Source: a virus. From it: a DNA stretch of 49,515 bases. The stretch lies in the IMG/VR virus record IMGVR_UViG_3300029319_000082, positions 1 through 49,515 of that record; one strand, written 5' to 3'. A program made the translations under genes and the position numbers. Positions 11,002 through 40,932 of this stretch are shown piece by piece. Position 1 is the first letter of the stretch, and each line of letters begins with the position of its first letter. Under the pieces are notes generated by a model, which worked only from the letters and a program-made list of their open reading frames with translations, was not told the origin of the DNA and searched no databases.

Positions 11002-11471
11002 GGCAGGTCATCCAATGGATTATTTATGTCTGGTAGATCGCCTGCCTCTTGACGAAGAATCTCACGGTAGTAGTTGATTTTCTGTTCAGGTGGCAAATTT
11101 TTTCCAATTGTGTTCACATTGTCTATGATTTCTCTACCGTCGTTTCCCAATTGATCTATTATTTCGCCCTCTAGATCATCTATTCTATCTTGAAGATTTG
11201 CCAAATATCTATCTTCTGCTGCCGTCAACTTATTCGGCCCGAATGGATCATCAGTTCTTGAGATGTTGCCTCTCTTAAACACCGGCTCTGGAGGATCTAG
11301 AGGTTTCAGTTTGAATTTTTTCTTTGGCACTGGGACATTACTAACTGTTTTACCACCCCTGAATAATCCCCTCAACGCTGCGAGAATACCTCTCAAGAAA
11401 TTCTCATCCAAGGCCTGGTAGTAACCCTCTTGGTATGCCTCTTTGATCATTTGTCTTTGTTCTGGTGTCAT
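10998..11471 (-). CDS. Capsid-targeted-type protein, 157 aa
   Basis: N-terminal module MTPEQRQMIKEAYQEGYYQA then LDEN, predicted to be cut after LDE. Next comes FLRGILAALRGLFRGGKT, an amphipathic basic helix that recurs in sister proteins (GIxxALRGLFKGxKT at 22674). The remaining sequence is helical and ends in the short acidic tail NNPLDDLP. No enzymatic motif. It overlaps its neighbours by one to four bases. Confidence 0.75.
   Translation of the reverse strand: MTPEQRQMIKEAYQEGYYQALDENFLRGILAALRGLFRGGKTVSNVPVPKKKFKLKPLDPPEPVFKRGNISRTDDPFGPNKLTAAEDRYLANLQDRIDDLEGEIIDQLGNDGREIIDNVNTIGKNLPPEQKINYYREILRQEAGDLPDINNPLDDLP
11021..11028 (-). promoter_or_regulatory. Possible late promoter (CATAAATA)
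   Basis: CATAAATA on the minus strand, 19 bases before ATG 11001. It lies inside the coding end of the upstream gene, so chance occurrence is possible. Confidence 0.25.
11403..11471 (-). repeat. Targeting-module coding repeat, copy 1
   Basis: First 23 codons of the 157-aa gene. The DNA is nearly identical to copies at 18862, 19318, 22574 and 23088 (shared core aaggcctggtagtaaccc in four of them, read on the plus strand). Confidence 0.8.
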
Positions 11472-12433
11472 TATCCTGCCCCTGCGTTTTTTAGTTCACG
11501 AACAATACTTTCAATTTCTCTTGCCAAACCGCCGCTATGATCTCTCAGTCTCACGCTATCTACATTTTCAAAGGGGGAACTGAAATATGGTGGGGCTCCT
11601 CTTTGGGAAAAGAAAACTCTTGCCTGTCCATCTTTCGTGATAACTATGCGATGCCCTGTTTTGTCTTGATAATTACTGATTAGGCTGTTCAGCCTTTTCG
11701 TAAGATTTTTTGTTTTTGTTGCCTTTGTTCCTCTCGTTACCGCACCAGTCATAGGTAGTAGTTTAGTGAATAATCTAGCAAGAGAACCAAAACCTTCTTG
11801 CATTTCCTCTCTGTCATTCATTTTTTCATCATTCGACATTGTGAGAAATGGTGATACGGTGTCAATCATATCTGCTGCCATTGACAATAAGGTTTGTTGA
11901 TCGTCTGTATCCATTTTACCGAACGGTGGAATAAATCTACCCACAACCGTCATGAGAAGTGGCGACTTCAAAAGCGTGTCAGAAATATTTGCACTTCCTC
12001 TTGTCAACTTCATGAGTGTTTTTGCGAAGAGTGGTTTCGATGCAAGTTTTTCTGCATACCTGCGAAGTTTGTCTAGTCTAATTTCGTCAAGTTGTTCTGC
12101 CTTGCCAAGTTTACCCTTTTTCTTTTCACCAGATGCACGCTTCAACATACCTCTGGCAGTGAGTCGGGCAGCAGCAGTTGAACCCACAACCTTCATTGCC
12201 TTTTTATAGTCTACATCCGAGAGATCACCATAACGATCACGAAGTTTAGCCTTCGCTTTATCGAGGTGACTCTTCATCTTCTTGCCTTTATACTTTAGAT
12301 CTTTCTCGTTGATTGTAGATTCTGGCACACAGTTAGGCACCATTCGGTTGCCTTTCTTTTTCATACCGACTTGCTTGTAGCCTTTCCAGCAGGCTTCGTT
12401 GAGATCTTCGACTAGGTGTTTGTATCTTTTCAT
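11471..12433 (-). CDS. Head-type protein with CWKGYKQVGMKKKG motif, 320 aa
   Basis: Begins MKRYKHLVEDLNEACWKGYK; LNE then Ala at residue 13 is a likely prohead-protease site, and the following CWKGYKQVGMKKKGNRMVPN has a form I associate with proteins of marine T4-like phages, possibly head or core components. Further candidate sites are INEKD, QLDEIR and EMQEGFGSL. The middle is Lys-rich and helical (KSHLDKAKAKLRDRYGDLSD); the C-terminal 100 residues hold a compact beta unit (HRIVITKDGQARVFFSQRG). The many sites suggest a scaffold-like or multi-part precursor. ATGA overlap with the upstream poly-Glu gene. Confidence 0.75.
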   Translation of the reverse strand: MKRYKHLVEDLNEACWKGYKQVGMKKKGNRMVPNCVPESTINEKDLKYKGKKMKSHLDKAKAKLRDRYGDLSDVDYKKAMKVVGSTAAARLTARGMLKRASGEKKKGKLGKAEQLDEIRLDKLRRYAEKLASKPLFAKTLMKLTRGSANISDTLLKSPLLMTVVGRFIPPFGKMDTDDQQTLLSMAADMIDTVSPFLTMSNDEKMNDREEMQEGFGSLARLFTKLLPMTGAVTRGTKATKTKNLTKRLNSLISNYQDKTGHRIVITKDGQARVFFSQRGAPPYFSSPFENVDSVRLRDHSGGLAREIESIVRELKNAGAG

Positions 12434-13515
12434 TGTTTTCTTTTTCTACCTAACTCAAAAAGAATCACCAGAATGATTATTCCTATGAGTGACCCCGGCT
12501 CTGGAATAGGAACACCTGCCATTTGTGTTGGCGGTGCAGCATCCTCTGATGTTGACCCCTGATCTTCTTCGACGACTACTGGCCTCATAACTGGATCGCT
12601 TGGTATGTAATCTTCAACTATGATCTCGGGTGTATCTGGTTGTCTTGAGTTCATTATCACAGGTATTGACTCTATTAGGTTTGGTGTCGATTCAATGATC
12701 CAATCATCTACCTCTCCCGCTGCTATATCTTCAAGCACTAAAGCCAGTACCTCTGGATCTGTTGTTATGGGCAGATCCATCGTCATCTCTTGTGGTGGTG
12801 AGGGAGATTCAGACTCTTCTTCTTTTTCCTCTTCCTCTTCTTCCTCTTCTTCTTCCTCTTCTTCTTCCTCTTCTTCTTCCTCTTCTTCCTCTTCTTCCTC
12901 TTCTTCCTCTTCTTCCTCTTCTTCGCTCTCTTCTTCGTTTTCTTCTTCATCGGATGGTTGTTCGTCTTGTGGTGTTTTCTTACCAGCACCAGCGGCCGCA
13001 GCGTCTCCTACAACGCCGCTCATATCAAGACCAGAACCTGAACCTGAACCTGAGTCAGATCCTGAACCGCTTCCAGACGCCATACTAACAGACCCGTCAA
13101 GACCACCAGCATCACCAGCACCTCCGCCACCACCACCTGATCCTGGGATGTTTCCATTCATCAAGTCTTGAACAGACTCATTCAGACCCATGATTTCTTC
13201 GATTGCTTCTTTACCGATAACAGTGCCAGCGACCGAACCACCGATTGTCAGACCGGTGATCTTTTTCTTGAGCAACTCAATTTCTTTGCTTCGACCTTGG
13301 TGAGCCTCTTGCTTCGCTTCGTATGCGGTGTCAAGTTCTTCACGAAGTTTTTCTTGTCTCTCTTCGCAACGCTCTAACGCTTCCCTGAGATCTTGCTCTC
13401 TCTCTTTAGCGTGATCTATTCTGTCACTTTGGCGTGCCCTCAGACAGTCTTCAAGTTGCTTCTTGAGATCTTCAAATTCATCACAATTGCAATCTTTGTC
13501 CTTACCCTCTGCCAT
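12430..13515 (-). CDS. Poly-Glu protein with PEP-CTERM-like C-terminus, 361 aa
   Basis: ATG 13515 overlaps the stop of the upstream 79-aa gene (TGATG). Order: acidic/basic coiled coil (about residues 10-85); a glycine-zipper hydrophobic stretch (TGLTIGGSVAGTVIG); LNES, a possible protease site; Gly/Ser-rich linker; a run of about 35 Glu (about 197-233); a folded-looking segment; and a C-terminus VPIPEPGSLIGIIILVILFE then LGRKRKQ. That end has the PEP motif, hydrophobic helix and basic tail of PEP-CTERM proteins, which bacterial exosortases process. No N-terminal signal peptide is seen, so true PEP-CTERM sorting is doubtful. It could simply be a tail anchor. Confidence 0.75.
   Translation of the reverse strand: MAEGKDKDCNCDEFEDLKKQLEDCLRARQSDRIDHAKEREQDLREALERCEERQEKLREELDTAYEAKQEAHQGRSKEIELLKKKITGLTIGGSVAGTVIGKEAIEEIMGLNESVQDLMNGNIPGSGGGGGGAGDAGGLDGSVSMASGSGSGSDSGSGSGSGLDMSGVVGDAAAAGAGKKTPQDEQPSDEEENEEESEEEEEEEEEEEEEEEEEEEEEEEEEEEEEEEEEKEEESESPSPPQEMTMDLPITTDPEVLALVLEDIAAGEVDDWIIESTPNLIESIPVIMNSRQPDTPEIIVEDYIPSDPVMRPVVVEEDQGSTSEDAAPPTQMAGVPIPEPGSLIGIIILVILFELGRKRKQ
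12819..12928 (-). repeat. GAA/GAG microsatellite encoding poly-Glu
   Basis: About 110 bp of almost pure GAA/GAG triplets (ttc/ctc on the plus strand), with short GAAGAG sub-repeats. Prone to slippage, so its length probably varies among relatives; in-frame changes only alter the Glu run. Confidence 0.9.
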
Positions 13516-13754
13516 CACTTGCCTTTCAGAATATCAACAATTTCATAGCCTCTGCGAATGAGTCCAGCAACAGCACCACGATTGGTTACGATTTCAAATT
13601 CACCGGTTCTAGTCTGTTGCATTATTGCCACAAAGTCTTTTTTACCTAGATATTTATCGGCCTGCTGTTTGGTCATTTTGTAGTCTTTAAACTTAGCCTT
13701 CACTTCAGATAAAGCGTGAACGGCCTCAGAAATCAATAGTCTTTGGTTGCTCAT
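13515..13754 (-). CDS. Small protein with N-terminal LxE site, 79 aa
   Basis: ATG 13752-13754, inside the end of regA. MSNQRLLISEAVHAL gives ISE then Ala at residue 10, a possible short targeting peptide. The mature part is a compact alpha/beta unit (KDFVAIMQQTRTGEFEIVTN, AGLIRRGYEIVDILKGK). No family recognised. Coupled by overlap to regA upstream and the poly-Glu gene downstream. Confidence 0.65.
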   Translation of the reverse strand: MSNQRLLISEAVHALSEVKAKFKDYKMTKQQADKYLGKKDFVAIMQQTRTGEFEIVTNRGAVAGLIRRGYEIVDILKGK

Positions 13755-18474: not shown

Positions 18475-18930
18475 TTAAGGGTCTAGACCAGGCAGGTCAT
18501 CAAATCTTGATCCTGTTGCAGTGCCAAAGTTATCAAAAAACGATGGATGACGCTTCATCAATTTTAAGATAGCCTGGTTATTCGTCAATTCACCAGCCTG
18601 CACTCGATAAAAAAGATCATCAATTGACGCTCCTATTTTATCCACAATATCGGAAGCGGTTGGTCCTAGGTCCTGATAATAGTTGTCTACGTCTGTGTTG
18701 AGACTATTCAACAATCTATCAAAAAGAATATCTGCCTGCTTCTTAAATGCGTTAGCATCATTAGGTTCTGGAAGTTTACCACCAAAGTTTATCAATCCTC
18801 TTCTTGTTGCTTTACCACCCTTAAAAAGATTCTTGAAGAATCTAATGGCACCACCCAAACCCTCATCCAAGGCCTGGTAGTAACCCTCTTGGTATGCTTC
18901 TTTGATAAGATTTCGCTGTTCTGGTGTCAC
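18475..18930 (-). CDS. Capsid-targeted-type protein, 151 aa
   Basis: I place the start at GTG 18930, 7 bases after GAGGA, because this aligns with the sister proteins (TPEQRNLIKEAYQEGYYQAL then DEG); a GTG at 18948 is also possible. Cleavage is predicted after LDE. Then comes GLGGAIRFFKNLFKGGKATR, an amphipathic basic helix shared with the next gene (GVGGFFRFLRSLFKGGDAV). The C-terminus ends in the acidic tail SRFDDLPGLDP. No enzymatic motif. Confidence 0.75.
   Translation of the reverse strand: MTPEQRNLIKEAYQEGYYQALDEGLGGAIRFFKNLFKGGKATRRGLINFGGKLPEPNDANAFKKQADILFDRLLNSLNTDVDNYYQDLGPTASDIVDKIGASIDDLFYRVQAGELTNNQAILKLMKRHPSFFDNFGTATGSRFDDLPGLDP
18862..18930 (-). repeat. Targeting-module coding repeat, copy 2
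   Basis: Coding DNA of the first 23 residues of the 151-aa gene, nearly identical to copies 1, 3 and 4 although the downstream halves of the genes are unrelated. Confidence 0.8.
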
Positions 18931-18948
18931 TGATGTTTCCTCACTCAC

Positions 18949-19386
18949 TTAGGGTAGGTCGTCGAAGCCAATTTTACCTATGACACCTGGTGGATCAATA
19001 AATCTCTTAAAGTCATCAAACAAATAACCGATGCCAAACTCGTCAAGAAGTTTCATGATTTCATCATCGGTGAATGGTCTTCCTAAAAGTTTCTGTCTTT
19101 CATTAAGGACTATCTCAACTGCCTTCATTAGACTTTGTTCGATACTAGAATCAAAAACTTGTTCGGGGGCTAGATCGCCTCTCAAAACGGACTTGGCATT
19201 TTTTGTTATTTGTTTGTCCATTTTCTTTGCAAGATTTTTGGCAGCAGACACGCTATCACCGACCGCATCACCACCTTTGAACAGACTCCTCAGAAATCTA
19301 AAGAAACCACCCACACCTTCATCTAAGGCCTGGTAGTAACCCTCTTGGTATGCCTCTTTAATTAGTTGTCTTTGTGATGGTGTCAT
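18949..19386 (-). CDS. Capsid-targeted-type protein, 145 aa
   Basis: Module MTPSQRQLIKEAYQEGYYQA then LDEG, followed by GVGGFFRFLRSLFKGGDAVG. The mature part is helical (KKMDKQITKNAKSVLRGDLA, SLMKAVEIVLNERQKLLGRP, TDDEIMKLLDEFGIGYLFDD) and ends GFDDLP, the short tail also seen at 10998 and 18475. It shares design but little sequence with its neighbours outside the module. Unknown function; presumed internal head protein. Confidence 0.75.
   Translation of the reverse strand: MTPSQRQLIKEAYQEGYYQALDEGVGGFFRFLRSLFKGGDAVGDSVSAAKNLAKKMDKQITKNAKSVLRGDLAPEQVFDSSIEQSLMKAVEIVLNERQKLLGRPFTDDEIMKLLDEFGIGYLFDDFKRFIDPPGVIGKIGFDDLP
19318..19386 (-). repeat. Targeting-module coding repeat, copy 3
   Basis: First 23 codons of the 145-aa gene; carries the shared core seen in copies 1, 2 and 4, with the PSQRQL variant also used at 23484. 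Confidence 0.8.
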
Positions 19387-19389: not shown

Positions 19390-19989
19390 TTATCCCATTG
19401 GTGTGTCAATATCAATGTCGTCTGCGTCATCTATTTGTTTTTTAAGGCGATCAATCAGATCATCAAGCGGGACATCAAGATTATCATCTACCACATCAGT
19501 TGTGCCTGGTAACTTACCTTTCCTGATCGACTTTCGAATCTTGTTACCGATATCACCGGCCTTTGGTTTCGGTGTTTTACCAAGGCCAAGTCTAGAAGCC
19601 AATATATTCTCGTCTGTCACGGCTCTAATCAATGCTTTTGCGATTGCTGCTAGATCGTCAAGGCCTTCATTCATATGATCATACGATTCGTGCATTGATT
19701 CCTTCTTAGGCTTCTTCTTGAGTTTACCTTTGATACCTTTTTTAGCACCCGCAGGAACTTTTGCCCAGAGATCTTTATCGGCAGTCTTTTGTGTTTTACC
19801 ACCTGTCAAGAAAGAGTTGACGCGAGCGAATGCCCATTGATGTTGTCCGATACCAGGTCTGTGGCCACCTGTCCAAGCAGCCATACCTCGATCATACACC
19901 TTTTTCAAAATGCCGTATGGGACACCAGTTTGTTTTGATTTATTTTCAAGGCCTTTAACCTTCTCTGTGATTAGAAATCTGTAGTTCAT
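19390..19989 (-). CDS. DUF5824-like phage protein with acidic tail, 199 aa
   Basis: ATG 19989 overlaps the stop of the 727-aa gene (TGATG). MNYRFLITEKVKG contains ITE at residue 9, a possible cleavage site. Residues 17-60 (GVPYGILKKVYDRGMAAWTG, GHRPGIGQHQWAFARVNSFL) match what I recall as DUF5824, a small phage domain of unknown role. DHMNEGLDDLAAIAKAL includes MNEG, another possible site. The C-terminus LIDRLKKQIDDADDIDIDTP is nearly the same as the tails of the 23166 and 32828 proteins. Confidence 0.75.
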   Translation of the reverse strand: MNYRFLITEKVKGLENKSKQTGVPYGILKKVYDRGMAAWTGGHRPGIGQHQWAFARVNSFLTGGKTQKTADKDLWAKVPAGAKKGIKGKLKKKPKKESMHESYDHMNEGLDDLAAIAKALIRAVTDENILASRLGLGKTPKPKAGDIGNKIRKSIRKGKLPGTTDVVDDNLDVPLDDLIDRLKKQIDDADDIDIDTPMG

Positions 19990-22192: not shown

Positions 22193-22642
22193 TTATCCTG
22201 GAAAGTCTGGATCAAAACCATCAAAGTCGTCCATAGCGCCATCTATGTCAAGATCATCTGGATCAAGACCAAGTTCATCAGCAAAATCATTCATTCTTTT
22301 TCGTCTTTTCAGATCACCTATCAATCTGTCTAAAGTTATATCTTTGGATAGCATGTCATCGACCTTACCAACATTAATGGTTCCACCAACACCATACTTG
22401 TCTTTCATGAGTTCAGGAATGTCTGGAATTTTATAATCAAGGTCATCTACTCGATCTAATCGTTTACTAACATCATCTATCTTGTTAAGAATATCACCGA
22501 CGCCGGTTGTAGGAGGGACCCTGGTAGCAGTCTTGCCACCCTTGAGAAGTTTCGCTAAAAGTGAAAAGAAACCCTCATCTAAGGCCTGGTAGTAACCCTC
22601 TTGGTATGCTTCTTTGATCATTTGTCTTTGTTCTGGTGTCAT
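22193..22642 (-). CDS. Capsid-targeted-type protein, 149 aa
   Basis: ATG 22642 aligns the module (MTPEQRQMIKEAYQEGYYQA then LDEG) with its sisters; a TTG 15 bases upstream is possible. The cleaved form would begin GFFSLLAKLLKGGKTATRVP. The remainder is rich in Asp/Leu repeats (DDVSKRLDRVDDLDYKIPDI) and ends in a very acidic tail (LDPDDLDIDGAMDDFDGFDP). No enzymatic motif. Acidic tails recur in the family and may mimic or contact DNA-binding surfaces; that is speculation. Confidence 0.75.
   Translation of the reverse strand: MTPEQRQMIKEAYQEGYYQALDEGFFSLLAKLLKGGKTATRVPPTTGVGDILNKIDDVSKRLDRVDDLDYKIPDIPELMKDKYGVGGTINVGKVDDMLSKDITLDRLIGDLKRRKRMNDFADELGLDPDDLDIDGAMDDFDGFDPDFPG
22574..22642 (-). 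repeat. Targeting-module coding repeat, copy 4
   Basis: Coding DNA for the module of the 149-aa gene; almost the same as copy 1 at 11403. Confidence 0.8.
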
Positions 22643-22673: not shown

Positions 22674-23156
22674 TTATAAATCTATACCTGGAATATCAGG
22701 ATCACCATCAGGGAACCCAGGACCTATTTGGGGACCAGACCCACCCCCAGGTCTACGTCTGATGGGAAGATCTTGAAAAAATGTTTTCATTGCAAATAGA
22801 AAATCGTTTTCTTGTATTACACCTTGCCTATACAGGGATAAAATTCTCAGATAATTTTCTATTTGATCCTCTGGTAGTAAGTAAAGTCTATTGTTAGCGA
22901 TCCATTGAATGATTTCGTCGGTAGACGCACTCATTCCAGGAAATGGACTTCCACTGCCTATGTTCAGGATGCCTCTTCTTTTTCCTCGAAATAAACCTGG
23001 GACTCTTTTAGTTTTAGGAGCCTTAGAAGCAGTCTTAGCACCTTTAAACAACCCCCTCAACGCTGAGATAATACCTTTTAAAGATATCTCATTCAAAGCA
23101 CCATAATAGCCCTCTTGGTATGCTTCTTTGATCATTTGTCTTTGTTCTGGTGTCAT
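22674..23156 (-). CDS. Capsid-targeted-type protein, 160 aa
   Basis: Module MTPEQRQMIKEAYQEGYYGA then LNEI, then SLKGIISALRGLFKGAKTAS, close to the segment after the cut in the 10998 protein. The middle has a small helical domain (STDEIIQWIANNRLYLLPED then QIENYLRILSLYRQGV). The C-terminus is Pro/Gly/Asp rich (GFPDGDPDIPGIDL). RBS AAGGA. Unknown function. Confidence 0.75.
   Translation of the reverse strand: MTPEQRQMIKEAYQEGYYGALNEISLKGIISALRGLFKGAKTASKAPKTKRVPGLFRGKRRGILNIGSGSPFPGMSASTDEIIQWIANNRLYLLPEDQIENYLRILSLYRQGVIQENDFLFAMKTFFQDLPIRRRPGGGSGPQIGPGFPDGDPDIPGIDL
23088..23156 (-). repeat. Targeting-module coding repeat, copy 5
   Basis: First 23 codons of the 160-aa gene; same as copy 1 for the first 17 codons, then the YYGALNE variant. 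Confidence 0.75.
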
Positions 23157-23165
23157 CGTGTTTCC

Positions 23166-23552
23166 TTACCCGATTGGTTCGTCCAAATCAATATCATCTG
23201 CGTCATCTAATCGTTTTTTCAAGGCATCAATCGCATCATCGATTGGGGTATCAAGATCTGGGTTTTTTGGATTGAATAGTCCTTTTTTTGACTTTCTGAG
23301 AATCTCTGACCGTCTTTTCATCACATTTCCCATATATTTACTTCCCTTTACCTCTTTACCTGTGGCTGGATCAATTATGTTACCCTTTCTGTTGAGGGTG
23401 AAACCTTGTTTTTCTAAATTCATTTCCTTAGCGACCTTGGCGGCAAGTCTTTTAAGAAACCGCAACGTAGTTCGTGATGGTGCCTCGTTCAAAGCACCGT
23501 AGTAACCCGCTTGGTATGCTTCTTTGATAAGTTGTCTTTGTGAAGGGGTCAT
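23166..23552 (-). CDS. Capsid-targeted-type protein, 128 aa
   Basis: Module MTPSQRQLIKEAYQAGYYGA then LNEA; LNE followed by Ala is the best match to the T4 gp21 site in the set. The mature part is basic (TTLRFLKRLAAKVAKEMNLE, GKEVKGSKYMGNVMKRRSEI) and ends with the shared tail DALKKRLDDADDIDLDEPIG. Only about 105 residues would remain after cutting. A terminator and a CATAAATA element lie just upstream, so this gene begins a late unit. Confidence 0.75.
   Translation of the reverse strand: MTPSQRQLIKEAYQAGYYGALNEAPSRTTLRFLKRLAAKVAKEMNLEKQGFTLNRKGNIIDPATGKEVKGSKYMGNVMKRRSEILRKSKKGLFNPKNPDLDTPIDDAIDALKKRLDDADDIDLDEPIG
23484..23552 (-). repeat. Targeting-module coding repeat, copy 6
   Basis: First 23 codons of the 128-aa gene; PSQRQL start as in copy 3 and GALNE end as in copy 5, as if formed by exchange between copies. 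Confidence 0.65.
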
Positions 23553-23572
23553 ACATTATCTCCAGTTATGTC

Positions 23573-23580
23573 TATTTATG
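23573..23580 (-). promoter_or_regulatory. Possible late promoter (CATAAATA)
   Basis: Minus strand GCATAAATAG directly after a terminator and 20 bases before ATG 23552. The position between a terminator and a head-type gene makes this one of the better late-promoter candidates. Confidence 0.55.
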
Positions 23581-23608: not shown

Positions 23609-23674
23609 CTGGTGACTTCACTCTCCGTCACTAGGAAAGCCATTTTAGTGACTTGGCATGTCTCACTCTACCTT

Positions 23675-24046: not shown

Positions 24047-24057
24047 AGTTTTTCTCC

Positions 24058-26550: not shown

Positions 26551-26670
26551 GGCAAAAGTTTGAGGGGCCGAAGTAAAAATGGGGAAATCCAGTCTTGGGG
26601 TTGGAGCGGCTTTTTTTGCCACGATTTTTTGTTTCCGCCCTATGTCAGTCCATAGAGTTGCTCGTCGAAG

Positions 26671-32006: not shown

Positions 32007-32576
32007 ATGCATCGAGTAAAAGAAGAAGTAAAAACACTCAAAGAGAAATTTGAAACACCACTCAATTGCCTTGAGACAGGCACTATTCGTTCGTATCATG
32101 AGAAGCATGAAAGCACTCGCCATATCTCTGAAACTCTTGGTGATGATGGTCACTTGAAGTCTCTTGATATTGAACCGAAGCACATTGAGGTGTCGAAGAA
32201 TATTTGTGGTGATGTCAAGAATGTTTCATGGATTGAATGCGACTCTTTGAACTATTTGAAAGAAGATGAAGACGAGTATCACTTTGTTCTTCTTGATAGT
32301 GTAAACGATCCATGGCACATCATGAATGAGTTTAAGTTGATTGCGAATCGTGTGCATGAAGGTGGCTCGATTATGGTTGATGATGCAGGCACTGATGCGT
32401 ATGGCAACTATCAACCAACAGGCGAAAAATTTCAAGCCAAGAAGGGCTGGGCTGTTTGTGATTGGTGCAAATCGAATGATGTAGATTGGCAAATTGTTGT
32501 TGGTGGTCACTCTTATCAGGTGTTGATTCCCGTGACGAAGAAGAACAAAGATAGATTTCAGCAATTCAATAAATAG
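32007..32576 (+). CDS. Class I SAM methyltransferase-like protein, 189 aa
   Basis: Resembles the Methyltransf_24 type: LNCLETGTIRSYHEKHESTR (motif I region), HLKSLDIEPKHIEVSKNICG (acidic residue that would bind the SAM ribose), YHFVLLDSVNDPWHIMNEFK (motif IV), GGSIMVDDAGTDAYGNY. The glycine-rich loop of motif I is reduced to ETG, so activity or substrate is uncertain. RBS AAAGGA. First gene of the plus-strand cluster. Confidence 0.75.
   Translation: MHRVKEEVKTLKEKFETPLNCLETGTIRSYHEKHESTRHISETLGDDGHLKSLDIEPKHIEVSKNICGDVKNVSWIECDSLNYLKEDEDEYHFVLLDSVNDPWHIMNEFKLIANRVHEGGSIMVDDAGTDAYGNYQPTGEKFQAKKGWAVCDWCKSNDVDWQIVVGGHSYQVLIPVTKKNKDRFQQFNK
32568..32575 (+). promoter_or_regulatory. Possible late promoter (AATAAATA)
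   Basis: AATAAATA overlapping the stop of the methyltransferase, 25 bases before the next ATG. Confidence 0.4.
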
Positions 32577-32600: not shown

Positions 32601-32663
32601 ATGAACTTTAGACAACAATTACAAGAAGCATACGAAGCAGGATATAGATCTGGCTTGAATGAA
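32601..32663 (+). repeat. Targeting-module coding repeat, plus-strand copy A
   Basis: First 21 codons; differs from copy B at 32828 in only a few bases, while the genes downstream are unrelated. Confidence 0.8.
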
Positions 32664-32827: not shown

Positions 32828-32890
32828 ATGAACTTTAGACAGCAATTACAAGAGGCATACGAAGCAGGATATAGATCTGGCTTGAATGAA
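32828..32890 (+). repeat. Targeting-module coding repeat, plus-strand copy B
   Basis: First 21 codons of the 213-aa gene; near-identical to copy A 227 bp upstream. Confidence 0.8.
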
Positions 32891-33472: not shown

Positions 33473-33937
33473 ATGCACATACAACAACGACTACTACTTG
33501 AACAAGAAAACGGAATGAAGTGTCCGCCAGCGACAAAGGATCTTGAACTCAACACCAAGAATCGTGATGCAACGATCAAGAAGTTTAATTATGGTCCGTT
33601 AAATGTCGATGAGCCTGGCGACTACTGGGAAAAGATCGCCAAGTATTGGAAGACAACAGTAAAGGCTGCAAAGTCATCGCTTTGTGGCAACTGCATCGCC
33701 TTTGACATCTCACCTCGTATGAAAGATTGCTTGCCTGGTGACACGTTCGACAAAGATGGCGAACTTGGCTACTGCTGGATGCATCACTTCAAGTGCCACT
33801 CAGCGAGAGCATGTCACACATGGGCAAAAGGTGGCCCAATCAAGAAAGATAGTGAGTCAGAGGCTTGGCAAAAGAAGGCTGGTCTTGATGAAAGCACAAA
33901 CCTCATTCAACTTACAGTCAACTCGTTAGGAATATAA
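33473..33937 (+). CDS. Cys-rich marine-phage type protein, 154 aa
   Basis: MHIQQRLLLEQENGMKCPPA: LLE then Gln at residue 10 may be a short targeting site. The body has eight cysteines in patterns CPPATKDLELNTKNRD, LCGNCIAFDISPRMKDCLPG, LGYCWMHHFKCHSARACHTW, which suggests a metal or Fe-S site. I have the impression of similar unannotated proteins in marine phages, but cannot name a family. It follows the double-module gene by four bases. Confidence 0.75.
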   Translation: MHIQQRLLLEQENGMKCPPATKDLELNTKNRDATIKKFNYGPLNVDEPGDYWEKIAKYWKTTVKAAKSSLCGNCIAFDISPRMKDCLPGDTFDKDGELGYCWMHHFKCHSARACHTWAKGGPIKKDSESEAWQKKAGLDESTNLIQLTVNSLGI

Positions 33938-33939: not shown

Positions 33940-34278
33940 ATGAATTACGAACAACTACGAATCGCTATGAATGCATACGAAAAGAGGGTGCAACTCGAAG
34001 AGGCCTACAAAGAAGGTCGGCAAAGAGCCATCGAAGAGGGTATTGGTAAACTTGCTGGTTTTGCGCCAGCGTTTAAAACTCTTTTGAGAACATCGAAAGG
34101 CAAAAAACTTAAAAATGTGGTAAAGTTGAAGAATACTTTTGCTGCAAACAGAGAGGCTCTCGTTCAGGCAGATAAAGTTCGAAAAGCAGTTGAAGCCTCG
34201 GTCGGTAGAAAATTGACCAACAAAGAGATGGAAGCCCTTCTTCGCTACATGGCTGAAAAAGGCATTCAAACACCCTGA
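33940..34278 (+). CDS. Head-type basic protein, 112 aa
   Basis: MNYEQLRIAMNAYEKRVQLE, then EAYKEGRQRAIEEGIGKLAG, a variant of the module (EAYxxGxxxxIEEG) placed at residues 21-35, so the cut would be IEE then Gly. The mature part is Lys-rich and helical (SKGKKLKNVVKLKNTFAANR). No enzyme motif. Confidence 0.65.
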   Translation: MNYEQLRIAMNAYEKRVQLEEAYKEGRQRAIEEGIGKLAGFAPAFKTLLRTSKGKKLKNVVKLKNTFAANREALVQADKVRKAVEASVGRKLTNKEMEALLRYMAEKGIQTP

Positions 34279-34283: not shown

Positions 34284-34505
34284 ATGTTATCTTTCATTGA
34301 ATATCTTGAAGAAGATGTAAGAAAGATGCCAGGCGGTGGCTTTGGTGTCTATGCTGATAAGTTTGTCAAGACAAAAAGTGGCAAGCGAAAGCGTGTGCTA
34401 ACTAAGACGGGCAAACATCGCAAAGAACTCAAGAAGGTTTACAAGAACAAAAAAGACGCGAATGACTACATGGCAGCCATCATGATTGCAAAGGGTGGTG
34501 GATGA
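34284..34505 (+). CDS. Small protein with T4 internal-protein-like leader, 73 aa
   Basis: MLSFIEYLEEDVRKMPGGGF: the first ten residues have the MxxFxEYLxE form, like the T4 internal-protein leader MKTYQEFIAE. The rest is highly basic (KTKSGKRKRVLTKTGKHRKE then LKKVYKNKK), as expected of a DNA-associated head protein. Confidence 0.7.
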   Translation: MLSFIEYLEEDVRKMPGGGFGVYADKFVKTKSGKRKRVLTKTGKHRKELKKVYKNKKDANDYMAAIMIAKGGG

Positions 34506-34822
34506 AATCATTTCTCGAATATCTCACAGAGGGCAAGCGTATACCCAAGACTCGCAAGAATCAAGACCCTGATACGCATAGCGACCTCTACACTGATGAG
34601 AATCCAAAAGGCACGATTCATGGTCTTGGTTTCAAAGATGTCAAGACAGCCGAAGCGTCAGTCAAAAAGATTGAAGCATCGAATCGAACACATGCACACA
34701 AGGTGCAAGCCGCAATTGCAATGGAGCAAAGAGCAAGGGTGATGGGCAAGAAAGCCGAAGCGGCTGTGTATCGTAAATACATTGAGAAGATGAAGAAGAT
34801 TACGAAAGAGAAAAACAAATGA
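34502..34822 (+). CDS. Small protein with T4 internal-protein-like leader, 106 aa
   Basis: MKSFLEYLTEGKRIPKTRKN: LTE then Gly at residue 10 is an excellent gp21-type site. The body (HSDLYTDENPKGTIHGLGFK, AHKVQAAIAMEQRARVMGKK) is a conserved-looking domain that I believe occurs in other phages, without known function. ATGA overlaps on both sides. Confidence 0.75.
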   Translation: MKSFLEYLTEGKRIPKTRKNQDPDTHSDLYTDENPKGTIHGLGFKDVKTAEASVKKIEASNRTHAHKVQAAIAMEQRARVMGKKAEAAVYRKYIEKMKKITKEKNK

Positions 34823-34881
34823 ACTTCAAACAACAACTACAAGAAGCCTATGAGGCTGGGTACAGGCAATCTCTACAAGAG
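34819..34881 (+). repeat. Targeting-module coding repeat, plus-strand copy C
   Basis: First 21 codons of the 154-aa gene; protein close to copies A and B, DNA more diverged. Confidence 0.65.
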
Positions 34882-35283
34882 GCTGTCGATGATGCCTACG
34901 AGGCCTATGAACGAGGCGAGATCAATGAAGAACAACTCGATGAGATTGTTGGCCTCATAACCAGAGGAATTTCTGCCATTCCTAAAATTGGTAAAGGATT
35001 GAAGAAGGGTTATGATTTTGTAAGAAAATCTTTTAGAAGACCAGTCAAGAAGAGAGGAACACCAGGAGTGACTCAACACTTAGATCCAAACACTGGTCTT
35101 CCTAAACCCGCAGGCCCAGACTATTACCCAACGGGTCACGGTCGCCCACCATTCCCCGGTGATACGAGATCACCACAGGGAGTTCTTGATGATAGACGAA
35201 AAATAGGACGATTTATTGATCCTCCTGAACCTCCTACCGACTATGATCCCTTTGACCCACTAGGACCATTGCTAGATCCCTAA
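34819..35283 (+). CDS. Capsid-targeted-type protein, 154 aa
   Basis: Module MNFKQQLQEAYEAGYRQSLQ then EA (LQE then Ala), followed by a second acidic helix DDAYEAYERGEINEEQLDEI with a second LDE. Then a basic segment (GLKKGYDFVRKSFRRPVKKR) and a Pro/Asp/Gly-rich end (PPEPPTDYDPFDPLGPLLDP). No fold recognised. Confidence 0.7.
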   Translation: MNFKQQLQEAYEAGYRQSLQEAVDDAYEAYERGEINEEQLDEIVGLITRGISAIPKIGKGLKKGYDFVRKSFRRPVKKRGTPGVTQHLDPNTGLPKPAGPDYYPTGHGRPPFPGDTRSPQGVLDDRRKIGRFIDPPEPPTDYDPFDPLGPLLDP

Positions 35284-35297
35284 ACAAGGAAAACGAA

Positions 35298-35582
35298 ATG
35301 ACACCAGAACAAAGACAACTTATTAAAGAAGCGTATATGGAAGGGTACAATGAGGCGACCCATCTTAGCGATGAAGAACTTGAGGAGGCCATTGGTCTCA
35401 TGCCCATCTTAGCGACATTGGGTCGAGGAGCGTTGGCGTTCGGTAGAAGACCAATTGTTAGTAAAACTTTAGGTGCCTCAGGGGTCTATGACTCTGGATC
35501 ATTTATCATGAATAACGCACCAGCAGTTGGTAAGGCAATGACGCCAAAGGGTCCTTTCCCTGGTGGTTACAGACCATTCTAA
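35298..35582 (+). CDS. Head-type protein, 94 aa
   Basis: MTPEQRQLIKEAYMEGYNEA: the minus-strand type of module (TPEQRQ) on the plus strand. The end differs (THLSDEELEEAIG), so the likely cut is after LEE before Ala. The mature part is small and Gly/Pro rich (LMPILATLGRGALAFGRRPI), with a possible hydrophobic helix. RBS AAGGA. Confidence 0.65.
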   Translation: MTPEQRQLIKEAYMEGYNEATHLSDEELEEAIGLMPILATLGRGALAFGRRPIVSKTLGASGVYDSGSFIMNNAPAVGKAMTPKGPFPGGYRPF

Positions 35583-35595
35583 GATAGGAAAACAA

Positions 35596-36036
35596 ATGAA
35601 ACCACCTAGTAGAAAATCATGCTACAACTTTCGCGTCACCGAAGTTGCAAGAGTTGTTGACGGTGACACAATCGACGTTGTAATTGATCTCGGCTTTGAT
35701 CTGTCAAAGAAAGAGCGTGTGCGTGTTGCAGGCGTTGATACACCAGAGAAGAGAACAAGAGACCTCGAAGAAAAGGCTCTCGGTCTTGATGCAACAAACT
35801 GGCTCAAAGACAAACTCGAAAGTGCCATATCAGGCGAAGATGATCTAGTCATTCGCACTGAACTTGATGGCGGCTTCGGTAAGTATGGTCGTCTACTCGG
35901 TTGGCTGTATGTCGGTGACGCTGATGTATCTCTGAATGAGCAAATGATCGAAGAGGGCTACGCATGGTCGTATGATGGCGGCACAAAGAACAAGAACTTT
36001 AGCGAACTTCTTGAAAAGCGTGGATTAAATAAATAG
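35596..36036 (+). CDS. Staphylococcal-nuclease-like (SNase/TNase) protein, 146 aa
   Basis: ATG 35596 with AGGA upstream; the longer frame lies in the previous gene. SNase OB-fold motifs: EVARVVDGDTIDVVIDLGFD, RVRVAGVDTPEKRTRD (Arg and Glu of the active site), FGKYGRLLGWLYVGD (second catalytic Arg), LNEQMIEEGYAWSY. Length fits the family. Calcium-dependent cleavage of DNA or RNA would be expected; host DNA breakdown is one possible use. It has no targeting module, though it sits among genes that do. Confidence 0.9.
   Translation: MKPPSRKSCYNFRVTEVARVVDGDTIDVVIDLGFDLSKKERVRVAGVDTPEKRTRDLEEKALGLDATNWLKDKLESAISGEDDLVIRTELDGGFGKYGRLLGWLYVGDADVSLNEQMIEEGYAWSYDGGTKNKNFSELLEKRGLNK
36028..36035 (+). 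promoter_or_regulatory. Possible late promoter (AATAAATA)
   Basis: At the end of the SNase gene, 30 bases upstream of the next ATG. Confidence 0.4.
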
Positions 36037-36065
36037 ATTTAGTCTTTCAAAACAAGGAACAAAAA

Positions 36066-36128
36066 ATGCATTTTAGACAAAAACTACACGAAGCCTACGA
36101 AGCAGGCTATAGATCAGGACTCGTTGAA
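36066..36128 (+). repeat. Targeting-module coding repeat, plus-strand copy D
   Basis: First 21 codons of the dockerin-like gene; retains EAYEAGYRSGL exactly. Confidence 0.65.
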
Positions 36129-36530
36129 CAATCTCCCCCTGGCTCACCAACGTCACCATATCGGGTGCCAGAATTTCCAAGATGGGATCAGATAGTAGGA
36201 TTCATGGAGGTTTTGACGTATTACCCACCAGATCAACAAGGACCCTACGGACTAATGTACGACTACAATGGTGATGGTGCAGTTGATCAGTTTGATCTTG
36301 AGTTTGCCAGGGCGATGGCAGAATTGTATCCTAACAGAGTGTTCACGGCCTTTAATCAACCCCAAGGCGTCTATCAACAGTGGTTTATAACCACATACTC
36401 TCGTCCGTTACCACCAAGAAGAATACCAGACCCAAGACTATCAGGAAAAATGAAGAAGAAGAAGAGAATGCAAGGACCATATGAACCAGGTGGCGGCAGA
36501 CCATTTGGGCCAGGCGGTCAAGGCTCTTGA
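36066..36530 (+). CDS. Capsid-targeted-type protein with dockerin-like calcium loop, 154 aa
   Basis: Module MHFRQKLHEAYEAGYRSGLV then EQ (LVE then Gln). Residues 66-77 read DYNGDGAVDQFD followed by LEFARAM, the form of a single dockerin/EF-hand calcium loop (D-x-N-x-D-G-x-V-x-x-x-D). Full dockerins have two such repeats; only one is seen. The remainder is Pro/Gly/Tyr rich, ending in a Gly-rich basic tail (KMKKKKRMQGPYEPGGGRPF). Calcium could stabilise the protein in seawater. Confidence 0.7.
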   Translation: MHFRQKLHEAYEAGYRSGLVEQSPPGSPTSPYRVPEFPRWDQIVGFMEVLTYYPPDQQGPYGLMYDYNGDGAVDQFDLEFARAMAELYPNRVFTAFNQPQGVYQQWFITTYSRPLPPRRIPDPRLSGKMKKKKRMQGPYEPGGGRPFGPGGQGS

Positions 36531-36536
36531 TAAATA
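36529..36536 (+). promoter_or_regulatory. Possible late promoter giving a leaderless mRNA (GATAAATA)
   Basis: GATAAATA ends 5 bases before GTG 36542, so T4-type initiation would be at the start codon. Confidence 0.45.
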
Positions 36537-36541
36537 CTTGA

Positions 36542-37171
36542 GTGCCTAAACTCAATGAGAATGAAAAGAAACTTTTCGATCTAGTCGAGAAAGACTGTAA
36601 AAAATATAATATAGACTTTGTTCGCTCAAGGCACAAGTCCGTAAACACCGGAGACTCAGGTAGAGTGTCCGGTTTTTTCGATGAGCAAACCTTGAGTGTT
36701 GCTCTCAAATCATACAATTGGGTGCATATTCTGGCACATGAATACTCACATCTACGTCAGTGGGTTGAAAAGGATGAAACATACACCGCAAAAAATCGTG
36801 ACGGTTCTTGCCCTATCGTGACTTTCACCAACTGGGTCAACGGTGTTGAAGATAATGCTGATCTGGCACTTGAGGCCACAAAGAAAGTCATTGCCCTTGA
36901 GAGAAATTGTGAGATGCGAGCGTACAAACTACTCAAGAAGTATAGTCTGGTGAAGAGTAAGGCAGAGAAGATTGAATACAAACAACTGTCGAATGCCTAT
37001 CTCTACTCGCACTGGGTTTCGCATAAACACAAGTTATGGCCTAAGTCTGGCTGGTCAAAAAAGTTAGACTACAATGTGATACCAAAATCGTTTCGTTGTG
37101 AGCCACACCTCAGAGACAACAAGAAAATACACAAGCACATTTTACAAAGCCTCAGAGGCGAAATAGAATAA
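36542..37171 (+). CDS. HExxH metallopeptidase-like protein, 209 aa
   Basis: WVHILAHEYSHLRQWVEKDE gives the zinc motif HEYSH at about residue 66. A downstream Glu or His should be the third ligand (candidates in NGVEDNADLALEATKK and LERNCEMRAYKLLKK, where a Glu three residues before Arg is typical). Helical throughout. No ribosome site: it probably relies on a leaderless late transcript. Substrate unknown; a virion-assembly or host-protein protease are both possible. Confidence 0.7.
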   Translation: MPKLNENEKKLFDLVEKDCKKYNIDFVRSRHKSVNTGDSGRVSGFFDEQTLSVALKSYNWVHILAHEYSHLRQWVEKDETYTAKNRDGSCPIVTFTNWVNGVEDNADLALEATKKVIALERNCEMRAYKLLKKYSLVKSKAEKIEYKQLSNAYLYSHWVSHKHKLWPKSGWSKKLDYNVIPKSFRCEPHLRDNKKIHKHILQSLRGEIE

Positions 37172-37174
37172 ATA
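37167..37174 (+). promoter_or_regulatory. Possible late promoter (AATAAATA)
   Basis: At the end of the metallopeptidase gene, 27 bases before ATG 37202. Confidence 0.4.
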
Positions 37175-37201
37175 GTGTATGAACAAATATAGGAATTACG
37201 C

Positions 37202-38449
37202 ATGAGATACAATCCCAATGATCTACCTTATCTTCGAGAAGCAGCCATGCATCAAATCAGCGAAGATGCTCAATCATTCGAAAACCTAATCGAGCAAGAT
37301 GCAAGAGACTCCTCTTCTAGAGTTAACGTCACATTCGTTGCAGATGCCGATCAGAGATCATATGAGAATATCACTCGCGACCCCGCACTCAAAAAACTGC
37401 CAGGTTTTCTTGGTCTCGGTAAAACAATATTTCGCCCCAGAAAGGGAAAGGCTGAATTCACCTTTCGTGCAGCCAACAAGTTATCTAAAGTTGGCATGAA
37501 TAAAAAGGATGAAGGGAAATTCAAGAAGTTGCTCAAGAAGCACGGCTTGAAATTGGTTGATACCATCTATGAAGGTTCTAAGAAACTTGATGAGCAAGGA
37601 CCTCTTGGTGGAGGTCTTACAAATCCAACTCTTCCATTTTTACCTCAAGTTGCCCAGAGACAAAAAACAGGAAGATACCGTACTGGCCGTCGAGAAATTG
37701 GTCGTCGAAGACCAGCACCTGGACTTGTTAATCCTGGTGGTCCCCCAATTCAATTTGAAGGACTAGCAGCCCGTGACGAGGGATATGAAATGAGAGGCCT
37801 TGGCTCAAAAGGGCTGAGGAATATGAAAGTATCCAAAAAGGTAAACGCTGAAAAGGTAAGAGAGGTTTTGACATCTGCAAGAATCCCACACAGCATGGTG
37901 ATGGGAACAATCAGAGTCCCTGAGAGATTTGTTAAACTTGCAAAGAAAAAACTTGATAATGCCTTTGGTGGAATGTTTCAAAAGAAAACTGGCTTCAAGA
38001 TTTCGGGAACTTTGAAAGAAGATGTGCATCTTGATGAAGAAATAGCAGCCCGTGACATACAAGGCATGATCAAGGGTTTGAACAAGAAAGCCAAGCAAGA
38101 GATTGCAGGTGTTCTGAATGACATGAACCTCAGTGGTTACGGCGACTACGAAGCAAGAGCAGACAACGTTCACAAATTCAAACCCAAAGATTTGCTTAAG
38201 GCGATGAATAAGGTAATGAAACTTGAAGAGAAAAAACTACCTACCGCAAGAAAGATCGTGAGTGGTCTTGGTGATGCAGACGGACCATTCACAGTGGTCG
38301 TGATGAAGAACAACAAAGTGATTCATCAAGAGTCAACGAAGTTTGCAAAGATGTTGCCTGCTATCGTCAAAGAACTGGCTAAAGAAATGCCTAACACCAC
38401 AATCGGCATCGAAAATAGAACTGGACAACTTGTGAAAGTCTTCAAATAA
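37202..38449 (+). CDS. Modular head-type protein with several LxE sites, 415 aa
   Basis: Candidate prohead-protease sites divide it into pieces: NLIEQDAR (about residue 34), KLDEQGPLGGG (about 134), HLDEEIAARD (about 279). The piece after the first site is a small alpha/beta domain (VNVTFVADADQRSYENITRD); the second is Pro/Arg rich plus a domain (SARIPHSMVMGTIRVPERFV); the last has two short units (IKGLNKKAKQEIAGVLNDMN; GPFTVVVMKNNKVIHQESTK). Together with the 727-aa protein it suggests precursors processed in the prohead. The start codon ATG follows AGGA. Confidence 0.7.
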   Translation: MRYNPNDLPYLREAAMHQISEDAQSFENLIEQDARDSSSRVNVTFVADADQRSYENITRDPALKKLPGFLGLGKTIFRPRKGKAEFTFRAANKLSKVGMNKKDEGKFKKLLKKHGLKLVDTIYEGSKKLDEQGPLGGGLTNPTLPFLPQVAQRQKTGRYRTGRREIGRRRPAPGLVNPGGPPIQFEGLAARDEGYEMRGLGSKGLRNMKVSKKVNAEKVREVLTSARIPHSMVMGTIRVPERFVKLAKKKLDNAFGGMFQKKTGFKISGTLKEDVHLDEEIAARDIQGMIKGLNKKAKQEIAGVLNDMNLSGYGDYEARADNVHKFKPKDLLKAMNKVMKLEEKKLPTARKIVSGLGDADGPFTVVVMKNNKVIHQESTKFAKMLPAIVKELAKEMPNTTIGIENRTGQLVKVFK

Positions 38450-38463
38450 GGAAAATAAAAAAA

Positions 38464-39030
38464 ATGAGTAATCAATACTGGAAAAATAAAATTCAACTCA
38501 AAGAAGCCCGTGAAAGGGAGCAACAATACCTTTTGACAGAGGGTCCGTTGAGAGGTCTCGCTCAACTTGCTCAAACGATCACTGATCCTAAAGTTGCGGC
38601 AAGGTTGAAAAACTTGTTAAAAAATGTTTTGGGACCGATTGCCAATACTCCTCGACCTGGTGGCTTTTCAATGAAAGTCAAACCCAAAGGCCTTCTCAAG
38701 ACTGGAGTAAGAACCGTTACAATATCTCAAGAACAACTAGATCGATTGCAAGAAATCTTAGGTCCTGCCCTATTCGAAGAATTTATGACAGTGTTGCAGC
38801 AATTCCTTCGAAGAGGCGGAGTCATGGATAATCCTACAGGACAAGGAGTCAACACTTTCCCACGTTATGTCATAGAACTACTCAAAGGTAAATACATGAT
38901 TGACTCACCAGGTCTACCAAAGAGTCTTTCAAACATGCCCGAAATGGGAACACCTGGAAGCAAGGCTTTTGGGCAAGACTATAATGCTATCATGGAAATA
39001 TTATACAAAGTCTTAGGTGACATTATCTAA
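38464..39030 (+). CDS. Capsid-targeted-type protein, 188 aa
   Basis: MSNQYWKNKIQLKEAREREQ then QYLLTEGPLRGLAQL: LTE then Gly at about residue 25 is the predicted cut, and the mature start GPLRGLAQLAQ echoes the sister proteins. The rest is a helical domain (ISQEQLDRLQEILGPALFEE then FMTVLQQFLRRGG) with a flexible end. Unknown function. Confidence 0.7.
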   Translation: MSNQYWKNKIQLKEAREREQQYLLTEGPLRGLAQLAQTITDPKVAARLKNLLKNVLGPIANTPRPGGFSMKVKPKGLLKTGVRTVTISQEQLDRLQEILGPALFEEFMTVLQQFLRRGGVMDNPTGQGVNTFPRYVIELLKGKYMIDSPGLPKSLSNMPEMGTPGSKAFGQDYNAIMEILYKVLGDII

Positions 39031-39035
39031 CCCTG

Positions 39036-39233
39036 ATGAAAACATTTCTCGAATATCTAAATGAAAGGAAACTCTCAGATACAGAACTCAAGTATCGTGA
39101 GAGGTATGTCAAAAAATTAAAACCTAAATTAAAAGACTTTCAGAAACGATATGGTAAAGAAGATGGTAAAGGTGTGATGTACGCAGTAGCAACAAAAATG
39201 GCAAAGAAAAAATACGACAAGGAAGATAAATGA
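39036..39233 (+). CDS. Small protein with T4 internal-protein-like leader, 65 aa
   Basis: MKTFLEYLNERKLSDTELKY: leader ending LNE then Arg. The C-terminal half YGKEDGKGVMYAVATKMAKK is a short conserved-looking helix with a KGVMYAxATKxA pattern that I believe is common in small phage proteins. Very basic overall. Coupled to the next gene by ATGA. Confidence 0.7.
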   Translation: MKTFLEYLNERKLSDTELKYRERYVKKLKPKLKDFQKRYGKEDGKGVMYAVATKMAKKKYDKEDK

Positions 39234-39568
39234 AGAATTTTAAAGAATATCTCGAAGAACATAATCACTGGGCAGCACTTCGAAGAGCCTTAGAAATTCA
39301 AACAGGCGCGCCGCAGTTTAGCCCGCAAGCCGCCGCGTTGTGGAGTGATTATGTTTCAACCTTGTCTGACGCAGAGTTCATGGACATGCTGGCATATCAA
39401 AGAAAAACTGGTAACATAGTCATACCAGACGAGTTCGATGCGAGAATAAGAAAAATAGGAAAACAAATTGACTCGGCCATCGCGGTTGCTGGCTCAAGTG
39501 CAAGAACACCAAAACAAAGAGCCAGCGTCATTAGAAGAATACTTAGGTCTGTTGGTAGAATTTTCTAA
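39230..39568 (+). CDS. Small protein with T4 internal-protein-like leader, 112 aa
   Basis: MKNFKEYLEEHNHWAALRRA: leader ending LEE then His, a weaker cleavage site. The mature part is helical (AALWSDYVSTLSDAEFMDML) and ends basic (RTPKQRASVIRRILRSVGRI). No family recognised. Confidence 0.65.
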   Translation: MKNFKEYLEEHNHWAALRRALEIQTGAPQFSPQAAALWSDYVSTLSDAEFMDMLAYQRKTGNIVIPDEFDARIRKIGKQIDSAIAVAGSSARTPKQRASVIRRILRSVGRIF

Positions 39569-39579: not shown

Positions 39580-39591
39580 CATAAATAAATA
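39580..39591 (+). promoter_or_regulatory. Possible tandem late promoter (CATAAATAAATA)
   Basis: Two overlapping NATAAATA octamers (39580-39587 and 39584-39591) in a gap, 24 bases before ATG 39616 with AGGAG between. Confidence 0.6.
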
Positions 39592-40869: not shown

Positions 40870-40932
40870 ATGAACTTTAGAGAACAACTTAGCGAGGCTT
40901 ACAAAACCGGCTACAATCAAGGACTACAAGAA
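40870..40932 (+). repeat. Targeting-module coding repeat, plus-strand copy E
   Basis: First 21 codons of the His/Glu-rich gene, the most divergent plus-strand copy (EAYKTGYNQGLQE). Confidence 0.6.

Follow-up and report, generated by a model that had tools for sequence, protein, structure and literature searches.

The internal proteins (IPs) of coliphage T4 are injected host-takeover and anti-restriction factors which diverge rapidly. In the deposited sequence (NC_000866), on which the comparisons with T4 made here are based, IPII and IPIII begin MKTYQEFIAE↓A and IPI begins MKTFKEF..TITE↓A, the arrow here and below marking a cleavage site, known, putative or predicted. The work of L. W. Black, as reviewed, showed for IPIII only that 10 residues suffice for targeting and packaging of a foreign protein, and amber-suppressor mapping of IPIII traced targeting chiefly to positions 4 and 7, and processing to positions 8 and 10 (PMC9026906). 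In the giant phage SPN3US, gp53 and gp54 are identical over their first 15 residues and have diverged bodies (PMC5694885), and mass spectrometry of purified virions of S-SM1 revealed the protein GC190 (PMC3037559). Here we describe four small basic proteins encoded between positions 34284 and 39568 of a viral DNA stretch of 49,515 nucleotides (49.5 kb; the window, that is, the whole stretch analysed), taken from the 50.9 kb IMG/VR record IMGVR_UViG_3300029319_000082. All four carry a decapeptide of the type MKxFxEYLxE (type B), which very probably is a T4-like capsid-targeting sequence (CTS). The source is an uncultured marine relative of T4, its DNA polymerase showing 48-50% identity to those of Synechococcus T4-like phages.

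The four genes and their N-termini were found on the + strand as the original prediction had described them (Table 1). Their products have 65-112 amino acids (aa), masses of 7.9-12.7 kDa and isoelectric points of 9.8-10.0. The ATGA overlaps at 34284/34502, 34502/34819 and 39036/39230 support real, coupled genes. BLASTP found the four bodies mutually dissimilar and gave no significant body match between the window proteins and the T4 IPs, so that the bodies are not homologous to IPI, IPII or IPIII; Pfam assigned a firm family to none of the four open reading frames (ORFs). Chance was modelled by shuffling the N-termini of the 69 window genes 20,000 times. The type-B leader occurs in 4 genes against 0.002 expected, and 7 genes have an [LI]xE whose last residue is residue 10, where 0.88 would be expected; all four type-B leaders end there in such a gp21-type site (LEE, LTE, LNE and LEE). 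The further short leaders announced at 1-538, 13515, 19390 and 33473 are likewise present.

The quoted IPIII leader, MKTYQEFIAE, agrees with NC_000866, and IPII has the same one. The claim that the window leaders nearly match it stands for residue class and spacing, 6-8 of 10 positions agreeing when conservative pairs (F/Y, Y/F, L/I) are admitted, but not for literal identity, which reaches 3-5 of 10. All four have F4, Y7, L8 and E10 where IPIII has Y4, F7, I8 and E10, and alignment with the known CTS thus shows that the four positions mapped in IPIII are kept. Ten relatives of 39036 were found, and through them the sister contig L441, which holds orthologues of three of the four genes with the leaders MKSFIEYLNE, MKSFIEYLDE and MKRFKQYLSE. 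Eight of the 27 leader positions compared (2-10 in three pairs) are replaced, all at 2, 3, 5, 6 or 9; at 4, 7, 8 and 10 there are no replacements in 12 comparisons (P = 0.003). Because the replacements all fall elsewhere, positions 4, 7, 8 and 10 appear to be under selection, which is an independent sign. The alignments thus support a resemblance of the type-B leader to the T4 CTS at the positions that matter.

The window holds 15 copies of ATAAATA, the core of the gp55-dependent T4 late promoter, where 5.0 would be expected, and every copy lies on the strand that is coding in its segment. Cores lie upstream of 32601, 36066, 37202, 39616, 40870 and 23552, among others.

The type-B leader appears to be separable from the folded body, judging from module boundaries and from a structural model. 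The body module of 34502 has at least 586 relatives in IMG/VR, and its junctions were analysed in the best 80 of these, which gave 62 distinct cases. There it is preceded either by a short N-terminal leader or by the end of a large unrelated domain. Examples of the former are MKTFKEFTE↓APRIP (L276), to be compared with the IPI start MKTFKEFT, MKTFLEFLAE↓SNPRIP (L277) and MKTFKQYIKE↓APRIP (L268). A Glu lies within 4 residues of the module start in 51 of the 62 cases against 22% expected, and the site is usually [ILF]xE↓[ASG], with I, F or L at P3 in 33/57 and A, S or G at P1' in 36/57. Module-first ORFs such as S-SM2 SSM2_109 (MSNPRIP) and L301 (MANKRIP) have no junction Glu, so this residue does not merely belong to the module. 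The 39036 body behaves similarly: in G004 (4647-4937) a 76% identical copy stands behind a CWxGY module, the similarity beginning at the NE↓RKL junction, and L316 has such a body fused to the 34502 module, with KE↓ESNPRIP as the joint. An AlphaFold model from 45 sequences was made for 34502, the sole one of the four proteins modelled. It gave residues 1-10 no secondary structure (predicted local distance difference test, pLDDT, ~50) and residues 47-105 three helices (pLDDT >90); a PDB fold search with this model returned nothing significant (best E 0.94). For this one of the four proteins, the model thus speaks against the refuting outcome named in the original prediction, a leader that is part of a stable folded domain.

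IMG/VR was searched with a degenerate DNA pattern for MKxFxEYLxE, with a scrambled pattern of the same fixed codons as control. At least 119 stretches matched, against 20 in the whole collection for the scrambled pattern. Among the matches listed, 106 leader-bearing proteins of at least 50 aa form about 30 unrelated body groups, one with 73 members, and position 3, which the pattern left free, carries T or S in 23 of the 34 groups, matching T4. The constancy of F4, E6, Y7 and E10 in this set was rejected as evidence, being circular, since the DNA pattern required it. The leader also precedes nucleotidyltransferase-like, HAD-like, J-domain-like and zinc-binding bodies. In the T4-like contig G006 five tandem genes with unrelated bodies begin MKTFKQYLEE, MKTFKEYLEE (three times) and MKTFKEYIRE, an arrangement reminiscent of the T4 ip genes.

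Related leaders were seen in other settings. Contig G019 (22963-26667) has four tandem genes of ~300 aa whose leaders read MKSF[KL][RQ][FY]L[KNS]E and which also have EF-hand-like D-x-N-G-D-G repeats, immediately downstream of relatives of the EAYxxGY leader genes described below. That these four genes share a body with window gene 36066 (type-A leader) and so document a leader swap was discarded as proof, the similarity amounting to an EF-hand-like stretch of 24 residues (best E 3e-4). One leader-B family of ~190 aa is very common (L048 6982-7578 and relatives) and has head closure/terminase small subunit-like genes on one side and the large terminase on the other; often a late-promoter-like ATAAATA stands within ~10-15 bases ahead of it, which may yield a nearly leaderless mRNA. 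S-SM2 SSM2_108 (L143 7564-7992) has the CTS-like leader MKTLKQFLKE followed by TNSVGNGGYTSAGGQTVAGYD, approximately a copy of its own capsid protein just past the putative cleavage site (TNAVGNGGYTSSGGQTVAGFD; gp23, L236 4851-6254).

A second leader (type A, EAYxxGY) is present in 13 window genes by the strict pattern, against 0.01 expected from shuffled N-termini, and a pair of [LI]xE sites with a spacing of exactly 12 residues is found in 14 genes against 0.28. In nearly all type-A leaders these twin sites fall at 9/21 or 11/23, as in LQE↓AYEAGYRSGLNE↓Q and IKE↓AYQEGYYQALDE↓G, and the variant leaders at 33940 and 38464 retain the 12-residue spacing. BLASTP among the type-A proteins and those of relatives often gave similarity that stops where the leader ends. 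In the distant relative L138 a type-A leader gene stands immediately behind gp21-gp22-gp23, and the second type-A site, LNE↓Q, is the same as the putative maturation site of the L138 capsid protein, ALNE↓QAQ. A close type-A pattern (MTP.QR..IKEAY) had one IMG/VR match, because of which a looser one was adopted; tblastn of a 25-residue type-A leader against isolate phages gave no credible match. The proposal that EAYxxGY too is a targeting signal is plausible on the twin sites, the leader-only similarity and the L138 gene order, but is less secure than that for type B. Judged from these sequences, type A is probably a second head leader cut twice, 12 residues apart. It is also possible, though we would lean against it, that type A is a scaffold-like or core-binding repeat, or a small domain, retained on the mature protein, with MKxFxEYLxE the sole CTS. 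This would suit the length and conservation of the leader, both greater than a CTS requires, its internal occurrence in the 32828 protein, and the related acidic repeats adjoining the protease gene in the jumbo contig G001; it fits poorly with the paired [LI]xE sites, which nearly every copy has at a spacing of exactly 12, and with the L138 capsid site and gene order just described.

In the window protein encoded at 32828-33469, the internal type-A motif (EAYEAGYESELNE↓G, at about residue 85) divides the protein in two, like a small polyprotein. In G001 (306 kb; L127, 6074-8560; 236-239 kb) several proteins share MNYEELFLEGYYDALNE on different bodies, two of the carriers lying near the S77 protease gene.

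Peptidase S77 (gp21) was found, among the matches listed, in 7 of the 9 leader-B contigs of at least 90 kb and in 9 of the 16 of at least 40 kb, against 2 of 25 controls (Fisher P = 0.001). G006 carries a complete gp13-gp23 block including S77, and in L138 the S77 gene adjoins the type-A leader gene. Putative capsid-protein maturation sites are LNE↓A in G006, LNE↓Q in L138 and IAE↓Q in S-SM2, where T4 has LTE↓A; by their residues, these sites and the predicted leader ends are the same kind of site. As to virions, the GC190 protein of S-SM1 begins MKKFSAFLNE↓A and its P-SSM2 counterpart MKSFSQFLTE↓T. PA5oct gp282, annotated as a structural protein from electrospray ionization tandem mass spectrometry (ESI-MS/MS), shows homology to the commonest leader-B family that starts at residue 1 and covers 92% of gp282. 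GC119 may be a virion protein too, since in S-SM2 it is annotated 'similar to S-SM1 protein', a label otherwise placed on known virion proteins in that stretch.

We consider it highly likely, on these comparisons and by analogy with T4, that the four decapeptides are CTSs of the T4 type, cut by an S77 (gp21-type) prohead protease. The small basic proteins would be made late in infection, as the late promoter cores suggest. From the T4 experiments and the positions conserved here, they would bind the prohead core via aromatic residues 4 and 7, and the S77 protease would cut behind E10 at [LI]xE, whereupon the decapeptide would leave. The basic body would remain with the DNA in the head and would probably be injected into the next host; packaging, cleavage and injection of the window's own proteins are what we infer from the T4 parallel.

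Several points weigh against this reading. The P1' residues of the window leaders are D, G, R and H, not the A preferred in T4. The IMG/VR pattern fixed F4, E6, Y7 and E10 and nearly fixed L8, so that only its free positions are informative, and the co-occurrence with S77 is confounded by the size of the contigs and by common T4-like ancestry. Neither a recognisable T4-type head gene nor a protease is present in the window or its ~51 kb record, for which reason the protease is postulated from relatives, and no head-gene contig of the window's close lineage was found, a DNA polymerase search yielding only two further fragments (99% identity). PA5oct gp282 begins MKSFRDYYDAS, which has no [LI]xE site, and detection in virions does not by itself assign a protein to the head rather than the tail. 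The last two points also lend something to an alternative we regard as improbable, in which the leader stays on the protein as a docking helix for another late structure (tail, baseplate, membrane or chaperone), [LI]xE being merely the helix end; the gp282 gene moreover adjoins tail tube, head closure and terminase genes. Such a helix sits badly with L8 and E10 unchanged in orthologues while 6 and 9 vary, with a Glu that marks the module junction even behind large unrelated domains and is absent from module-first ORFs, and with a layout equal to that of the proven T4 CTS. That the leaders are a remnant of recent gene duplication, without special role on four paralogues with diverged bodies, is very improbable: the clustering of the genes and the near identity of some leaders, of which G006 is an example, speak for it, but the bodies are mutually dissimilar, their homologues in other phages bear different leaders or none, and the same leader precedes the enzyme-like, J-domain-like and zinc-binding bodies named above.

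Beyond the capsid-targeting reading of the four leaders, we offer a wider picture tentatively, being rather evenly divided and leaning slightly to doubt. Marine T4-like phages may load head cargo by a modular system of two or more interchangeable leaders, among them the MKxFxEYLxE tag and a doubly cut EAYxxGY tag. The same basic modules would occur singly behind a tag or strung together in GC119-type proteins diced by S77 at [LIF]xE, and the heads would deliver dozens of different small proteins into the host. The CTS principle is known, and that T4-like phages swap cargo by it has already been proposed (PMC9026906); in the literature searched, which mostly excluded subscription journals, no description of CTS in marine T4-like phages was found. 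New are the occurrence of the leader on many families of cargo, the putative second leader with twin sites, and modules that are either single and tagged or concatenated with Glu-marked joints. Because T4-type internal proteins diverge so fast, they are not findable by body similarity; the leader rule makes them findable. In the 50 kb of the window it singles out some twenty candidates for packaged proteins, and it flags many unrelated cargo families, some enzyme-like and mostly annotated as hypothetical, in marine T4-like and some jumbo phages. If true, it would offer a direct test of which unknown genes of the commonest large ocean phages are injected as an infection begins, together with new tags by which phage heads could be loaded with proteins.

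Table 1. Predicted leaders, protein bodies and late promoter cores in the window. Arrows mark predicted cuts.
Feature	Position	Strand	Remarks
Type-B leader MLSFIEYLEE of ORF 34284-34505	34284..34313	+	Predicted cut after E10, LEE↓D; L441 orthologue MKSFIEYLNE↓D, changes only at 2 and 9
Basic body of ORF 34284, 63 aa	34314..34505	+	Whole protein 82% identical to L441 orthologue; no firm Pfam family
Type-B leader MKSFLEYLTE of ORF 34502-34822	34502..34531	+	Predicted cut LTE↓G; residues 1-10 disordered in AlphaFold model, pLDDT ~50
Basic module KRIP..HSDLYTDENPKGTIHGLGF.. of ORF 34502	34532..34822	+	Three-helix bundle 47-105 behind extended arm; at least 586 IMG/VR relatives; same module makes up the N-terminal region of GC119 proteins in cyanophages
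Type-B leader MKTFLEYLNE of ORF 39036-39233	39036..39065	+	Predicted cut LNE↓R; L441 orthologue MKSFIEYLDE↓R
Basic body of ORF 39036 (RKLSDTELKYRERYVKK..)	39066..39233	+	76% identical body in G004 4647-4937 behind different module
Type-B leader MKNFKEYLEE of ORF 39230-39568	39230..39259	+	Predicted cut LEE↓H; L441 orthologue MKRFKQYLSE↓D
Basic body of ORF 39230	39260..39568	+	L441 orthologue 54% identical over 110 aa, leader counted
Short leader MKKYKEILSE↓Q	1..538	-	Gene incomplete at window end
Short leader MSNQRLLISE↓A	13515..13754	-	G004 partial homologue begins MLTFKCFLKE↓S
Short leader MNYRFLITE↓K	19390..19989	-	G004 homologue begins MNFFEG↓K, sequence after it 88% identical
Short leader MHIQQRLLLE↓Q	33473..33937	+	
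Type-A leader protein	10339..11001	-	Sites at residues 11 and 23
Type-A leader protein	10998..11471	-	
MKRYKHLVEDLNE↓ACWKGY.. protein	11471..12433	-	CWxGY module embedded in cyanophage GC119 behind LDE↓AGKKCWPGY
Type-A leader protein	18475..18948	-	
Type-A leader protein	18949..19386	-	
Type-A leader protein	22193..22642	-	
Type-A leader protein	22674..23156	-	
Type-A leader protein	23166..23552	-	
Type-A leader MNFRQQLQE↓AYEAGYRSGLNE↓Q	32601..32663	+	Sites at 9 and 21
Type-A leader, same 21 residues as in 32601	32828..32890	+	Same protein has internal EAYEAGYESELNE↓G at ~residue 85
ORF with variant leader	33940..34278	+	[LI]xE at residues 21 and 33
Type-A leader MNFKQQLQE↓AYEAGYRQSLQE↓A	34819..34881	+	
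ORF with type-A-like leader MTPEQRQLIKEAYMEGY	35298..35582	+	
Type-A leader MHFRQKLHE↓AYEAGYRSGLVE↓Q	36066..36128	+	Precedes EF-hand-like body
ORF with variant leader IQLKE↓AREREQQYLLTE↓G	38464..39030	+	Sites 12 apart
Type-A leader MNFREQLSE↓AYKTGYNQGLQE↓L	40870..40932	+	
Late promoter core	23573..23579	-	Upstream of type-A gene 23166-23552
Late promoter core ATAAATA	32569..32575	+	Upstream of + strand leader cluster
Late promoter core	36029..36035	+	Upstream of 36066
Late promoter core	37168..37174	+	Upstream of 37202
Double late promoter core	39581..39591	+	Upstream of 39616

Other features of the window were noted. A Staphylococcal-nuclease-like ORF (PF00565) at 35563-36036 lies within the leader cluster and has no recognisable leader. 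Repeats that vary between the window and L441 are found at 12430-13515 (a long poly-Glu run with Gly/Ser repeats) and at 40870-41145 (His/Glu/Met repeats, YHEGMHEMDHEEDEG). On the - strand, Pfam revealed a sialic-acid gene cluster at 44780-49407, comprising a CMP-sugar synthetase-like cytidylyltransferase, a methyltransferase-like ORF, NeuB, NanE and a 594-aa protein with Rieske and metallo-beta-lactamase domains, in an architecture like that of CMP-N-acetylneuraminic acid (CMP-Neu5Ac) hydroxylase; a hydroxylase-like gene would be unusual on a phage.

Among the known systems, giant phages offer N-terminal propeptides that are removed by the prohead protease (gp45, gp47, gp53 and gp54 of SPN3US, and phiKZ), as proposed here; unlike the window leaders, these are as a rule much longer and have another cleavage motif (AxE, SxE). 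GC190 (S-SM1 SSM1_190, P-SSM2 PSSM2_194), the protein found in S-SM1 virions, has the same leader layout as the window proteins. It differs in its cytidylyltransferase-like body (CTP_transf_like) and its length of ~390-430 aa, and no leader-bearing homologue of it is encoded in the window. GC119 (S-SM2 SSM2_109; PHROG 727) holds the 34502 module, the CWxGY module, DUF192 and other pieces, with LxE-like sites at several joints. The window encodes these pieces as separate ORFs, whereas GC119 is one long protein which adjoins gp16/gp17 and lacks an N-terminal leader. DUF192 is a free-standing ORF at 40435-40827 of the window, and in the GC119 of L143 (7989-10115) it is fused with the 34502 module, the CWxGY module and DUF6321.

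The T4 CTS (IPI, IPII, IPIII and Alt) resembles the window leaders in being N-terminal, 10 residues long and of the form M-K-x-[FY]-x-E-[YF]-[LI]-x-E at the end. In both, the leader stands on small basic proteins with unrelated bodies and late promoters, and an S77 protease is found in relatives bearing the leader. The window differs in its low literal identity (just 3-5 of 10 residues), in more numerous and more varied carriers and in a second leader type, and the wider group also has the same modules concatenated in large proteins. Compared with the IPI, IPII and IPIII families themselves, the window thus has the same kind of small basic proteins with late promoter cores, on bodies that are not homologous to theirs.

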